Shown here in pieces: positions 30,274 to 36,165 of a stretch of DNA of 39,294 nucleotides. Source of the stretch: Actinomycetota bacterium (GTDB lineage Bacteria > Actinomycetota > Rubrobacteria > Rubrobacterales > Rubrobacteraceae); contig CADDYV010000033.1 in the NCBI GenBank assembly GCA_902810695.1, forward strand, positions 1 through 39,294, in the 5' to 3' direction. The notes beneath the pieces are model-generated. The model had not been told where the DNA came from, made no database searches, and saw only the letters and a list, made by a program, of their open reading frames with translations. Position 1 is the first letter of the stretch. Every line of letters starts with the position of its first letter. The position numbers and the translations under genes are program-made.

Positions 30274-30294
30274 CGGACCTCGCGGCTCCGCTAC
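30270..30294. terminator. Inverted repeat covering both stop codons of convergent regulators
   Basis: An 8-bp perfect stem (30270-30277 with 30287-30294, 9-nt loop) includes the TAG of the LuxR-type gene in its left arm and the TAG of the GGDEF regulator (minus strand) in its right arm. It may act as a compact bidirectional terminator. The stem is short and no U-tract is present. Confidence 0.45.
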
Positions 30295-31160
30295 TGCCGC
30301 CATCTCCTCTCGCTCTCGCGCAGCGCCCGCTCCGCCTCTCTCAGAAGCTCGCCAGCGGATTTCCGTTCGGCGGGGGCGAACCTGGTGAGGCCGACGCTCA
30401 GGGTGACGTATCCCGCTCCGTTGCCTTCGAGGATTCTTCCGGCGCTCTGGCGCAGGCGCTCGGCTGCTGCCGCCGCACCTTCGATGCTCTGTTCCGGCAG
30501 CACCAGGATGAACTCGCTGTCGCCGTAGCGGTAGGCAATGTCTCCGGCTCTGGAGCCGGCGGAGATCACCTCCGCCACCCGGCGCAGGAGCGCATCGCTT
30601 TCGGCCCGCCCGTAGCTGCCGCTGTACTCCTCGAAGGAGTTTATCCCGAGCGTCATGAGGCAGTAGCAGTGCCCGTACCGTCCGGCCCGGCTCCGCAGCG
30701 CCGCGAGGTCTTCGGCCAGGCGGCGCCGGTTTCCGAGTCCTGTGAGCGGGTCGCGCAGGGTCCGCTCGGCGAGTTCCCTGTGCATAGAGGTTACGCGCTC
30801 TACGGAGATCAGGCACAGCCGGAGGCGCTCGCGGTCCAGGGGCTTGAGCATGTAGTCATCGGCCCCGGCCTGCATCCCGGCGGCCAGATGCTCCGGCTCG
30901 TCCATCGTGGTCAGGAAGATGAAGTACGGGTAGCGTTCCCGATCCATCTGGGAGGCGCGTATCCTGCGGCAAAGCTCCAGACCGTCCATGCCGGGCATCA
31001 TCCAGTCGCTTATGATGACGTCCAGATCTGGCGTTTTCTGGAACAGATCCCAGGCTTCCTCTCCGTCAGCGGCGACCACGCTCTGGTGGCCCAGCTTCTC
31101 GACGGACTTTTTCAGGATGGTACGGGAGACGGCGTCGTCCTCCGCTAGAAGAAGCTTCAT
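30291..31160 (-). CDS. Response regulator with degenerate GGDEF domain
   Basis: A 289-aa protein. The receiver (about 1-120) has D8/D9, phospho-acceptor D52 (VIISDWMMPGMDG) and K106, all intact. The GGDEF domain (about 130-289) starts with RDPLTGLGNRRRL as normal. However, the signature reads RYGDSEF (211-217) instead of RYGGDEF, and the first metal-ligand motif DxD is LGIN (171-174), with the following N-D replaced by S-G. It should not make c-di-GMP; it may bind GTP/c-di-GMP or partner proteins. The ATG at 31160 is chosen over the upstream GTG/ATG because of the receiver start. Confidence 0.88.
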   Translation of the reverse strand: MKLLLAEDDAVSRTILKKSVEKLGHQSVVAADGEEAWDLFQKTPDLDVIISDWMMPGMDGLELCRRIRASQMDRERYPYFIFLTTMDEPEHLAAGMQAGADDYMLKPLDRERLRLCLISVERVTSMHRELAERTLRDPLTGLGNRRRLAEDLAALRSRAGRYGHCYCLMTLGINSFEEYSGSYGRAESDALLRRVAEVISAGSRAGDIAYRYGDSEFILVLPEQSIEGAAAAAERLRQSAGRILEGNGAGYVTLSVGLTRFAPAERKSAGELLREAERALRESERRWRQ

Positions 31161-31278
31161 CTCAATTTCACCTTCCTCCGATCCCGTCTCCACGAAGTGC
31201 TCTCCCGGCCCGGATTCTGCATCAGTAACGGCAGCGAGATTCTTAACCCGCCTCTGTCATATTGCAACAGCATCCCGC

Positions 31279-31515: not shown

Positions 31516-32604
31516 TTACCACTCGGTCGAATTTCTGAACAACGCTTTGTAGTAGCTGTAGGCGTGGGCCGCGAGCAGGAAAAACTCGTAGGGCATCTCG
31601 AACAGCAAAGTAGCTCCTATAAGGGCACGTCCCACACCTCCTCTCCTGAATACCGTTATTGCGTGCTCCAGCGCGAACACGGCGGTTGCTGCGATCCATA
31701 TCGGGTAGAGCGTGAAGTGCCCGGTCCCGATACCCCAGAGAAGCGTTGCGAGGTAAGTGGCTACAGCCGCCATCCCCACGGCTCCCCAGGCGAGCATCAG
31801 CCCCAGCGTCCTGGTTCCGGGCACCAGGCCGTACTCCAGCACCGTGCGCACCGCGCCCTCCTTCCAACGGACACGCTGCTTCCAGAGCCTCCTCCATCCC
31901 CCCATCGTCTCCGTAGTGAGCGAGCAGGCCACGGGCGCTACGACCCGGTGTCCCAGGTTGACCAGCCTCACCGATATCTCCAGGTCCTCGACGAGGCTCG
32001 ACCTAGTGTAGAGTTTCCGGTAGGGACGGGAGTCCCGCACATCGCGCGCCGCGCTTACCCGGATCATCATCGCTGTGCCAGTAAGCGTGAGCGCCTTACC
32101 GTGCTTGCGGGCCACGTCGCGTTCGTAGCGCAGATACTCCTGCTGCTCGCAGAACGCCACGTACCGGCTCATGGGGCCTCCCCTGATGTCATCACGGCCC
32201 CGGAACACCCCTCCCACAGCCGAGTAGCCTTTCTCCATCCACGCCTCGCCGGTTGCGATGAATCCAGAGGAGATATAGGAGTCGGCATCCACCACCATCA
32301 GCACGTCGTCGCCTTCAAGCGTGCCGTCCAGACGCTCGAACGCCTCGTTGAGAGCATCAGCCTTGCAGTTTCCTCCCTCGACTACCACCACCTCCGCTCC
32401 GGTCTCTCGCGCTCTCCCGGCGGTTCCGTCGGAGCAGTTGTGCGCTATAACCACTACCCTGTCGGGAGTCCGGCTCTGGCTTAGCACGTGCTCTACGCAC
32501 CGCGCTATGGCCGCCTCCTCGTTGTGGGCTGGTATCAGGACGATTACCTGGGAACGGTCTTCTTTGTGGCTTGCTTCGGTGGACTTTTCTCTCTGCTCTT
32601 TCAT
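31516..32604 (-). CDS. Membrane glycosyltransferase, family 2 (processive-type)
   Basis: A 362-aa GT2 enzyme. The catalytic domain (about 18-250) has VIVLIPAHNEE, the nucleotide-sugar DAD (106-108), an acceptor-site ED (206-207) and the QRVRW motif (243-247), as in processive synthases of cellulose, hyaluronan and poly-GlcNAc. Three to four hydrophobic segments follow (about 263-350). It is shorter than full cellulose synthases and has no PilZ domain. The start ATG lacks an SD. It neighbours an LPxTG microprotein and, across about 670 bp, a c-di-GMP-riboswitch-controlled GH26-like gene. The product polymer is unknown. Confidence 0.92.
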   Translation of the reverse strand: MKEQREKSTEASHKEDRSQVIVLIPAHNEEAAIARCVEHVLSQSRTPDRVVVIAHNCSDGTAGRARETGAEVVVVEGGNCKADALNEAFERLDGTLEGDDVLMVVDADSYISSGFIATGEAWMEKGYSAVGGVFRGRDDIRGGPMSRYVAFCEQQEYLRYERDVARKHGKALTLTGTAMMIRVSAARDVRDSRPYRKLYTRSSLVEDLEISVRLVNLGHRVVAPVACSLTTETMGGWRRLWKQRVRWKEGAVRTVLEYGLVPGTRTLGLMLAWGAVGMAAVATYLATLLWGIGTGHFTLYPIWIAATAVFALEHAITVFRRGGVGRALIGATLLFEMPYEFFLLAAHAYSYYKALFRNSTEW

Positions 32605-32803: not shown

Positions 32804-33094
32804 TCAAGGAGCGTTGATCAGGGCACGCACTATCCGGCAGAGGGCGTACAGGAACGCATACCCGAAAAACTGCCTCTTGCCCGGCGTAAACATTCGGATA
32901 ACCAGTTTGTGGATCGGGCTCTGGGCAAAGCCACCTTTCCTGGCCTCATCCTCCGCCACGTTCTGTTGATCAGCGCGCTCCTTCGGCTTGGTTTCGCTCA
33001 TCTGTGCATCTCCCGTCGCAGCTTGCTCATCATCTGCGTATATCAATGCTAGCACTAGATAGAGTAGTGCAAATCCCGCAACGTTGCCCAGCAT
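32804..33094 (-). CDS. Small membrane protein, unknown (96 aa)
   Basis: A protein with an N-terminal hydrophobic helix (about 3-19, NVAGFALLYLVLALIYA), a charged middle of about 45 residues rich in Glu, Lys and Gln, and a second, weaker hydrophobic segment (FFGYAFLYALCRIVRALI) near the C-terminus. I do not recognise a family. The ATG at 33094 is preferred; a TTG two codons upstream (33100) also opens the frame. It lacks a strong SD. It lies between the GT2 gene and the riboswitch, with the start facing the riboswitch side. Confidence 0.55.
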   Translation of the reverse strand: MLGNVAGFALLYLVLALIYADDEQAATGDAQMSETKPKERADQQNVAEDEARKGGFAQSPIHKLVIRMFTPGKRQFFGYAFLYALCRIVRALINAP

Positions 33095-33172
33095 GAACAA
33101 AAACTTTCACATTTTCTCAAAGAGAAGCTAAAGTTTTCGCGCTTCCAATCCGATAATCCAGGTATTCAGAAA

Positions 33173-33243
33173 AAGGCAAACCCGTCGCGAGGCGGGGACG
33201 CAAAGCCACGGGCCTCCTGAAAAAGAGGCAGCCGGGTTGCCAA
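33173..33243 (+). ncRNA. Cyclic di-GMP-I (GEMM-I) riboswitch aptamer
   Basis: The sequence carries the strongly conserved GEMM-I core in order: GGCAAACC at 33175-33182, a 6-bp stem (33181-33186 with 33191-33196) closed by a GCGA tetraloop of the GNRA type, then GGGACGCAAAGCC (33195-33207), a second stem GCCTC...GAGGC, and the 3' strand GCAGCCGGGTTGCC. It stands 37 nt in front of the start codon of a Tat-exported GH26-like gene. The aptamer reads c-di-GMP; whether it switches ON or OFF cannot be read directly. Confidence 0.93.
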
Positions 33244-33245
33244 AG

Positions 33246-33278
33246 TGCGTTCCTCCTGACGACGAAAGGAGGAACGCA
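33246..33278 (+). promoter_or_regulatory. Expression platform: hairpin sequestering the SD of the GH26-like gene
   Basis: A perfect 12-bp stem (33246-33257 with 33267-33278, 9-nt loop) directly follows the aptamer. The right arm contains the SD aggagg (33267-33272), 7 nt before the ATG at 33280. When formed it blocks ribosome binding; there is no U-tract, so control is likely translational. The aptamer's last strand does not overlap the left arm, so the coupling mechanism is unclear. Confidence 0.8.
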
Positions 33279-33279
33279 G

Positions 33280-34332
33280 ATGTCGAAAGCGCAAATCTCT
33301 CACTCAACCAGAGGGTACTCCCCCGGTATACTCGATCGCAGGATAAGCCGCCGGGATTTTCTGAAGGCTGGCGGCGCGGGACTTGGAGCGATGGCGCTCT
33401 CGACTATTTTGCCAAACTTCGTAACTGATCAGAAAGCGGAAGCCGCTACCGGAAGCTCCGGCATAGCCCTGGGCGCTTTCGCACCCAGTCTGCCCTGGAG
33501 CTTCGAGGACATAGACAATTTCTCCACTTTGACGGGGCACAATCCGGCCATCATCCACTGGTTCCAGGACTGGACGATGGACTTCGATCCGGACTACATG
33601 AACCAGGCGGCTTTAAGAAAGGCGATGCCGCTCGTAAGCTGGGAGCCCTGGGACTGGAACGGAGATAGGACCAACCAGCCCGAATACTCGCTCCGGGCGA
33701 TTCTGCGGGGAGACCACGACGCCTACATTCGCCGGTGGGCGCGGGCCGCAGCGGCGTGGGGCAGGCCCTTCTACCTGCGGTTCGCGGCGGAGATGAACGC
33801 CGACTGGGACACCTGGAGCCCGCAAGTCAACGGCAATACCTCATCCGAGTACATCGCCGTCTGGAGAAAGGTGCACAGGATGTTCCGCCGGGCCGGAGCA
33901 ACCAACGCGCGGTGGGTCTGGTGCCCGGTCGTCTACTACAAAGGCTCGACGCCGTTCAAGGCCGTCTACCCCGGCGACGCCTACGTGGACTGGGTCGGGC
34001 TCGACGGCTACAACTGGGGCAATCTCCAGTCCTGGTCGCACTGGCAGAGCGCGGGCGATATCTTCGGCCAGTCCTACCGGATGCTCACCCGTATGACCCG
34101 CAAACCCGTAATGATTCCAGAGGTAGCCTCAACCGAGCACGGCGGTAACAAGGCGCGCTGGATCCTGGACGCCTTCCTCAGGGAGATCCCCTACAAATTC
34201 CCCCGCGTGAAGGCCATCGTCTGGTTCGACGCCGACAAGGAGACCGACTGGCGAGTCAACTCCTCCAGCCCCTCGCTCTCCGCCTACCGCAAGATAGCGG
34301 CCAACCGCCGCTTCCGGGCGCACCTGACGTAG
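33280..34332 (+). CDS. Tat-exported glycoside hydrolase, GH26-like
   Basis: A 350-aa exported hydrolase. A twin-arginine motif (RRISRRDFLKAGGAGLG, about 21-36) and a hydrophobic stretch lead to a likely cut near AEA-A (about 53-56). The TIM-barrel catalytic domain has YLRFAAEMNADW with likely acid/base E171 and MIPEVASTE with likely nucleophile E281, as in GH26-type beta-mannanases and beta-1,3/1,4-glucanases. The c-di-GMP-I riboswitch and SD hairpin control translation. A GT2 gene lies upstream on the other strand. It may trim or release a surface polysaccharide (inference). Confidence 0.9.
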   Translation: MSKAQISHSTRGYSPGILDRRISRRDFLKAGGAGLGAMALSTILPNFVTDQKAEAATGSSGIALGAFAPSLPWSFEDIDNFSTLTGHNPAIIHWFQDWTMDFDPDYMNQAALRKAMPLVSWEPWDWNGDRTNQPEYSLRAILRGDHDAYIRRWARAAAAWGRPFYLRFAAEMNADWDTWSPQVNGNTSSEYIAVWRKVHRMFRRAGATNARWVWCPVVYYKGSTPFKAVYPGDAYVDWVGLDGYNWGNLQSWSHWQSAGDIFGQSYRMLTRMTRKPVMIPEVASTEHGGNKARWILDAFLREIPYKFPRVKAIVWFDADKETDWRVNSSSPSLSAYRKIAANRRFRAHLT

Positions 34333-34402: not shown

Positions 34403-35293
34403 ATGGATCAGCCTTCTTTATTTGGAGAACATCCCCATTTATTTGAAGTTGGGGGTGGCAAGATTTTCAACGTAGCTACAGTGCCGATGCGCAGTCCTTT
34501 CAGGTATCCAGGCGGGAAGACATGGCTGGTCCCATACATCAGACAATGGTTACTCAGCCGACAGACTAGAGTCAAAGAATTCATAGAACCATTTGCCGGC
34601 GGCGGGATAGTAGGACTCACGGCTGCTTTCGAGGGCCTTGCGGACCACGTGACGATGGTCGAACTAGATGACCAGGTAGCTTCCGTATGGCGGGCTATTT
34701 TGTACGGCTACGGTGAGCAACTCGCTAACAGGATCGCCTCGTTCGAGTTGTCCACCGAGTCCGTAAAGAAGGTACTTGACTCACCCGCTAACTCTCTACT
34801 GGATCAAGCGTTTGCAACCATTTTGAAGAATAGAGTCAACCGGGGCGGAATACTCGCTCCCGGAGCCAGCCTGGTAAAGAGTGGAGAAAATGGGAAGGGA
34901 TTATCTTCTCGCTGGTACCCGGAAACTCTCAAAAAGAGGATTCTGGATATTGCTCACATAAGCAACCGCATTACCTTCATCGAGGGCGATGGTATGGAAG
35001 TGATGAGGCAGAACGCCCATCGCAAAGATGCCTCTTTCTTTATAGACCCCCCATACACACTGGCCGCCAGACGACTATACAGTCAGTGGAAGTTGGACCA
35101 CGAAGAGTTGTTCAGAACAGCAGAGGGGCTTGCGGGTGATTTCCTGATGACTTACGACAACGATGAGCTGATACGCTCTCTGGCAGCCACTCATGAGCTC
35201 CAGATCAGGGAAGTGGCTATGAAAAACACTCACCACGCCAGGATGACCGAGCTGCTAATAGGTCGAGACCTCTGCTGGTTAGGTGCTCAATAG
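34403..35293 (+). CDS. D12-class DNA adenine-N6 methyltransferase
   Basis: A 296-aa Dam-like (D12 class) DNA methyltransferase. It shows the order FRYPGGK (33-39), the SAM-binding motif IEPFAGGG (61-68) and the catalytic DPPY (215-218). It methylates adenine in a specific site, presumably protecting the host DNA from the facing NotI-like endonuclease. A putative -10 (TAGAAT) close to the ATG suggests a leaderless message. The gene and its partner have visibly lower G+C than their surroundings, in line with horizontal transfer. It ends 1 bp from the endonuclease's end. Confidence 0.93.
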   Translation: MDQPSLFGEHPHLFEVGGGKIFNVATVPMRSPFRYPGGKTWLVPYIRQWLLSRQTRVKEFIEPFAGGGIVGLTAAFEGLADHVTMVELDDQVASVWRAILYGYGEQLANRIASFELSTESVKKVLDSPANSLLDQAFATILKNRVNRGGILAPGASLVKSGENGKGLSSRWYPETLKKRILDIAHISNRITFIEGDGMEVMRQNAHRKDASFFIDPPYTLAARRLYSQWKLDHEELFRTAEGLAGDFLMTYDNDELIRSLAATHELQIREVAMKNTHHARMTELLIGRDLCWLGAQ

Positions 35294-35294
35294 A

Positions 35295-36165
35295 TTAACT
35301 GCTTATGATGTCTCCCATTGTTGGAGCATCAGGAGGATTGTCTAACTCCTCATTGAGTTTACCCTGAAGGACTTCTACAAAATCCTCAATCGGTCCGGCC
35401 TCTGGAGAAGTAATCTTTACCAGGGCTGGTTCAAATTCTGTGTAGACTATCTCATCCAGAACCAGATTGTACCGGTTGGTATCCTCATCTTTCTTGAGAT
35501 CGTAAATCATCCAGGCAACCTCGGCTTCTTCCCGAGAGACTGTTGGTGGGGCGGGAAGCGTTGCGAAGAAGTTCTTGTGTATGGCAATCGCCTGCTTCTT
35601 GCCCCAGGCCTTGAGAATCCCTCCTTTGTAGACCATCTGTGGTAGCAGGCGTTTTCTGGAAGATGAGAGGTAGTCTGGGCGAACGTTGGTATCAGACCAG
35701 ACCATGTTCTTGCGACGCTCCATGTCGGCTATGTAGTGCTCAAAAGGACGACGCACGTTCCCCGAGATATAAACGGCCTGCACCTCCAGAGAACCGAAAT
35801 CGTTAACTTGGCCCTTCTCGTCATAGGAAGCTATCACTACGTCTATGTTTCCCGCCGAGCGACCGTTTTTGTCCGTAAGCCTGACCTCTGGCAAAGAAGT
35901 CCAACTTCCTGAAGAGAAGCCGAAAAAACCTGGCTGCGTCCCCAGCGATCAACCAGTCTTGCCGAAAGCGTATCGGGCAAGTGATCGCGGGAGTGTTGCC
36001 TTCCATGACACTACAAACTCCGAGAGGATCGTTAGCCTTATCTTTGGTGCAGTTGGGAGATTTGTTGTTGAAAGGACAAAGCTTGTTGATTTTGTATCGT
36101 TTGGCCTCGGGTGAGAGGTCGTCCGTGGGAAATCCGAACACCTCTGCCAGAGGATTCTGCGCCAT
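35295..36165 (-). pseudogene. NotI-like restriction endonuclease, frameshifted
   Basis: Two frames together make a NotI-family type II endonuclease of about 289 aa. The 5' frame (36165 to about 35925) has the four-cysteine metal site seen in NotI: C30 (LCPF), C39 (NCTK), C51 (GVCSV), C63 (TCPIRF). The 3' frame (from about 35921) has SLPEVRLTDKNGRSAGNIDVV and SLEVQAVYISGNVRRPF, giving the D...ExQ catalytic pattern of NotI. The break is at a run of six T (35923-35928 as A on the plus strand); removing one joins the frames in register. It may be a real mutation, an assembly/sequencing error, or slippage. The ATG follows aaagga. Confidence 0.88.

Follow-up and report, generated by a model that had tools for sequence, protein, structure and literature searches.

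Among the closest described systems is the Cd1 riboswitch of C. difficile, in which a transiently stable antiterminator refolds to the terminator only after extended periods (Landgraf et al., PMC9262584). The Vc1 riboswitch of V. cholerae stands before gbpA, the gene of a secreted carbohydrate-active protein; it has no apparent anti-Shine-Dalgarno (anti-SD) sequence and lowering c-di-GMP reduced expression (PMC4744006). As far as its citation in PMC11218506 goes, a 2018 report concerns the masking of a distant ribosome binding site by a c-di-GMP riboswitch. In R. radiotolerans, RsiG together with c-di-GMP binds WhiG; this switch was assigned to type IV pili and c-di-GMP enzymes, and the flagellar/WhiG promoter type defines the WhiG targets. 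Riboswitches are not mentioned in that work (PMC8325347), whereas the putative promoter described below feeds a c-di-GMP aptamer.

The window, i.e. the whole stretch of 39,294 nucleotides that was analysed, comes from a genome of the Rubrobacteraceae and, like the Vc1 locus, has a riboswitch before the gene of a predicted secreted carbohydrate-active protein. The likeness to Cd1 includes a predicted OFF logic with four strands, an aptamer and a downstream hairpin that can coexist, a transient pairing of a switching strand with the aptamer that competes with them, and a P1 stem that is weak or absent (PMC9262584). A Cd1-like alternative that would destroy the binding pocket is modelled in the window as the pairing of 33194-33202 with 33246-33254. 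The two systems differ in their output, which is a terminator in Cd1 and apparently occlusion of the SD in the window, and in the strand that is captured: the Cd1 antiterminator takes G86/C87 at the 3' end of the aptamer, whereas the switching strand of the window is antisense to stem P2. In the best reading of this comparison, the window leader would be a translational version of the Cd1 switch.

Other Actinobacteriota have aptamers of the same family (RF03167), with secreted enzymes and type IV pilins encoded downstream. Unlike the window, however, the other three copies in the genome and many relatives have the SD directly after the aptamer, without a hairpin; an assigned start within 20 nt was counted in 63 of 143 relatives, the start codons being assigned by a simple rule. 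In L002, L003, L004 and many relatives the SD GGAG abuts the 3' end of the aptamer (CCGAAAGGAG), which is a very common layout.

The aptamer and the hairpin at the start codon

The Rfam scan of the whole window gave one match only, RF03167 (c-di-GMP-I-GGC) at 33166-33245 on the forward strand, where the promoter, the hairpin and the GH26 gene described below lie too. The match covers the full length of the model (1-80) with 76.8 bits (gathering threshold 59, E = 1.1e-16). An initial annotation had proposed a GEMM-I core at 33175-33241, with a covariance-model search as the check; this search supports the riboswitch class with a score above gathering, but the clan winner is the GGC variant, which outscores the generic GEMM-I model. 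The motifs quoted there, GGCAAACC at 33175-33182 and the GCGA loop at 33187-33190, were correctly placed.

According to the Rfam alignment and its pairs, stem P2 with the GCGA tetraloop, the target of the switching strand, spans 33181-33196 and stem P3 33204-33238. Mapping by eye, with the Vc2 numbering of PMC4744006, suggests that G33175, A33202 and C33240 are equivalent to Vc2 G20, A47 and C92; G33175 is the predicted ligand contact and selectivity residue. Judging by the match to the family, the aptamer presumably binds c-di-GMP. Among the relatives, the G20-equivalent position is G in 169 of 172 and A in the other 3. A20 is a mark of cGAMP-type GEMM-I riboswitches, and an A is present in L014 and L015, the leaders of GH26 orthologs in genus g2 (AAAGAGCAAACC), where the choice of ligand may differ from that of the G-type relatives. 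Stem P1 is almost missing in the window aptamer, with A-A at 33168/33242, so that the usual handle for coupling is absent.

The perfect hairpin reported by the initial annotation was recovered with all of its 12 pairs, TGCGTTCCTCCT at 33246-33257 with AGGAGGAACGCA at 33267-33278, around a loop at 33258-33266; alone, it has a folding energy of -22.0 kcal/mol. Also as reported, the right arm holds AGGAGG (33267-33272), 7 nt before the ATG at 33280. The claim of a secreted, GH26-like product agrees with Pfam, where the ORF at 33280-34332 matches GH26 (34.5 bits) and a TAT signal, i.e. it is predicted to be a TAT-exported GH26 glycoside hydrolase. The nearest solved relatives in the PDB search are GH26 endoglucanase H structures (E = 1.5e-54), with which both putative catalytic glutamates, E171 and E281, align; we take endoglucanase H to be a lichenase-type GH26.

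An intrinsic terminator was rejected as the output of the riboswitch, as no terminator-like site was found in 33040-33300 and the SD hairpin is present. The same result speaks against transcription attenuation, in which blocked translation would expose the RNA to Rho or the hairpin would pause the polymerase; this explanation is compatible with an identical RNA switch, and we consider it the least probable of those weighed here.

Proposed competition for stem P2

The initial annotation had found the coupling between ligand and SD not obvious, since the hairpin does not overlap the 3' strand of the aptamer. A plausible alternative is that the left arm and the loop pair with P2. The switching strand (33246-33264), defined by prefix folding, the list of pairs and randomisations, consists of the left arm and most of the loop and is a degenerate antisense of the P2 region 33183-33202 with 17 possible pairs. 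The nine bases 33246-33254 can pair with 33194-33202, 33255-33257 with 33190-33192, and the loop bases 33260-33264 (CGACG) with 33183-33187 (CGTCG); the A equivalent to Vc2 A47 would be drawn into this pairing. Pairing of the leader with the 3' tail of the aptamer or with P3 was considered too and is not significant for the window leader.

The folds of successive transcript prefixes show the aptamer up to end 33249, the anti-P2 fold at ends of about 33258-33270, and the aptamer together with the SD hairpin from about 33276; the two pairings are mutually exclusive. At ends 33263-33271 the anti-P2 fold is better than any fold keeping P2 by 3.5-7.1 kcal/mol in ViennaRNA, which takes no account of the ligand or of tertiary contacts. 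The penalty for enforcing P2 is maximal (7.1 kcal/mol) at ends 33265-33269, and the advantage of the anti-P2 fold is lost once the right arm has emerged. The maximal value was reached by 1 of 300 dinucleotide-shuffled leaders and by 5 of 300 randomisations in which the hairpin at the SD was preserved along with the anti-SD hexamer.

The full-length transcript behaves differently. Its minimum free energy fold keeps the aptamer and the SD hairpin together, the probability of an unpaired SD is about 0, and the closed form (-53.3 kcal/mol) is favoured over the open one (-42.6 kcal/mol) by about 10.7 kcal/mol. It follows that at equilibrium the gene would be silent whether ligand is present or not, and that a kinetic trap is needed.

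The full-length fold and the stability of the hairpin (-22 kcal/mol) would also be expected if the hairpin were a permanent brake in which the aptamer is not involved. It would then be opened by another factor, such as a helicase, an RNase, temperature or coupled translation, or the riboswitch would affect only the stability of the RNA. We regard this as rather unlikely, because the antisense match to P2 beats nearly all randomisations, including the hairpin-preserving ones, and because it recurs in orthologs.

The reading that we prefer, with a probability of roughly 0.6, is a kinetic translational OFF switch with a WhiG layer that would push the same way. The transcript would start just past the sigma-28/WhiG-type promoter, with the aptamer coming first. 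Binding of c-di-GMP before the following strand exits the polymerase would keep P2 closed and the left arm free; the SD hairpin would form, and translation of the GH26 gene would be off. If no ligand has bound, the emerging left arm and loop would invade P2 and dismantle the pocket; the anti-P2 pairing would then occupy the anti-SD strand and leave the SD open long enough for ribosomes to load. Translational control by c-di-GMP, the lifetime of the open state and the direction of the switch are all inferred. For the direction, the aptamer can coexist with the SD hairpin while the anti-P2 fold excludes the two of them, so that ligand should favour the closed state.

An ON switch, in which the ligand-bound aptamer would favour an open SD and c-di-GMP would raise the GH26 output, has precedent among c-di-GMP-I riboswitches, and less c-di-GMP lowered Vc1-dependent expression (PMC4744006). 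We nevertheless judge it very unlikely in the window, where the only competing pairing that was found sets the mutually compatible aptamer and SD hairpin against the open form.

Leaders of the relatives

Beyond the GH26 protein of the window, 38 other family genomes yielded only three strong homologs (G001, G013 and G022). The riboswitch lies upstream of all three, G001 and G022 being near-identical. The orthologous proteins share 66-69% identity, and both types of leader retain the arrangement with different loops. The left arm GCGT-CC is unchanged in four leaders, including L019, which belongs to a beta-helix (non-GH26) gene of another genus; the lengths and the loops of the leaders vary.

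The prefix-folding shuffle test covered seven leaders. The anti-P2 fold had an advantage of 9.3 kcal/mol in L012 and 7.2 in L015, both leaders of GH26 orthologs, and 6.3 in L019, and the numbers of shuffles that did as well were 0, 0 and 1 out of 60, respectively; L021 was negative in this test. L012 was not significant in the single-duplex test (p = 0.41), and its support comes from prefix folding. The loop of L012 pairs with the 5' strand of P2 via GGCGGGUU, that of L015 via GCGG and that of the window via CGACG. In L025 and L171 the 3' strand of P2 is altered (GGAGAGGGCGC) and the complementary leader is altered too.

Complementarity at p<=0.05 was counted in the 104 leaders whose start was distant or had not been assigned. 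Matches to the P2/core 3' strand were seen in 15 leaders, to the 5' core in 11 leaders, to P3 in 3 and to the tail in 5, against an expectation of about 5; the sequences are related and the counts are a rough guide. Since complementarity to the P2 strand is found in only 15 of these 104 leaders, the anti-P2 design is not general. A genome-wide scan for an aptamer plus GCGYYCC, which serves as an illustration only, gave 76 loci, many of them ordinary GEMM-I or unrelated.

Other arrangements were seen as well. In L144, L155, L170 and L172 the left arm of a terminator (GTGGTTTGCC) is complementary to the 5' core of the aptamer (GGCAAACC); by its sequence, this is a different anti-aptamer strand, one predicted to feed a terminator. 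L181 and L188 have two aptamer-like cores per locus and are possible tandem riboswitches.

The putative promoter and the downstream genes

A sigma-28/WhiG-type promoter, TAAAGTTT-N12-TCCGATAA, was recognised by eye in upstream alignments at 33129-33156. It ends 9 nt upstream of the aptamer and is absent from the initial annotation. The -35 TAAA is matched, and the -10 TCCGATAA has one mismatch to the consensus GCCGATAA. Across the genome, 15 exact matches to TAAAGTTT-N8..14-CCGATAA were counted, against 0 in the reversed control, and a promoter match lies upstream of all four riboswitch copies of the genome. TAAAG-N14..18-CCGATAA stands before 17 of 70 riboswitches of the family, in 0 of 70 reversed sequences and in 1 of 2034 control tiles from other parts of these loci, and a relaxed pattern gives 22, 1 and 7, respectively; these patterns were picked after viewing the alignments, so the enrichment is somewhat inflated, yet the contrast with the controls is still large.

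The genome shares with the R. radiotolerans system both the promoter type (TAAA / GCCGATAA) and a WhiG homolog (PMC8325347). The latter scores 246.5 bits with TIGR02479 (cut-off 189.6) and matches the WhiG of 7LQ4 (E = 2.9e-58). From its sequence, the promoter is probably used by WhiG. Two motif searches of the genome gave no plausible RsiG protein among the matches listed. The motif E(X)3S(X)2R(X)3[Q/H](X)3D had 13 DNA matches, none plausible, the best-looking of which (L283) runs antisense to a large ORF that resembles a transporter gene; with the S relaxed, a candidate on contig 52 is in the wrong frame. With no RsiG among the listed matches, the idea that c-di-GMP governs WhiG here is an inference from R. 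radiotolerans. At high c-di-GMP, WhiG would presumably be held back, in which case both layers would act in the same direction.

Among 53 proteins of the family encoded downstream of riboswitches, Pfam identifies 10 subtilases, 7 GH16, 5 beta-helix, 3 GH26 and 2 GH5 proteins; some of the downstream genes in other families are type IV pilin-like. RF03167 aptamers before such pilin-like genes were seen at L080, L087, L090, L101 and L106, with a sigma-28-type promoter at several of them.

GGDEF domains were matched 15 times in the genome and EAL domains 9 times. In the window, a response regulator plus GGDEF protein is encoded on the reverse strand at 30291-31193, about 2 kb from the riboswitch. 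Between the two lies a gene for a GT2-family glycosyltransferase (31516-32604, reverse strand); c-di-GMP-linked beta-glucan synthases are GT2 enzymes. Further on, a NotI-like restriction gene (35295-36165, reverse strand) looks frameshifted, since Pfam NotI matches two overlapping ORFs in different frames, and a D12-class adenine methyltransferase gene (34403-35293) adjoins it.

With the proposed P2 pairing, the hairpin, which had been puzzling, becomes a concrete and mutually exclusive switching scheme, and one signal, c-di-GMP, may gate the GH26 gene twice. More tentatively, and with less than even confidence, we propose that in the Rubrobacteraceae and related Actinobacteriota the genes for matrix-degrading enzymes and for pilins are under a double lock, in which RsiG-c-di-GMP would sequester WhiG and the RF03167 riboswitch would close the mRNAs made from WhiG promoters, the GH26 branch using the left arm of its SD hairpin as an antisense of P2. 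If the riboswitch were ON, the same layout would be a band-pass filter and not a double lock. It is a consistent reading that low c-di-GMP would free matrix-loosening enzymes. The data suggest that in a basal actinobacterial lineage c-di-GMP riboswitches act on the same transcripts as a sigma factor that is under c-di-GMP control in a relative; if true, this would explain how secreted glycanases, proteases and pilins come to depend on a single signal.
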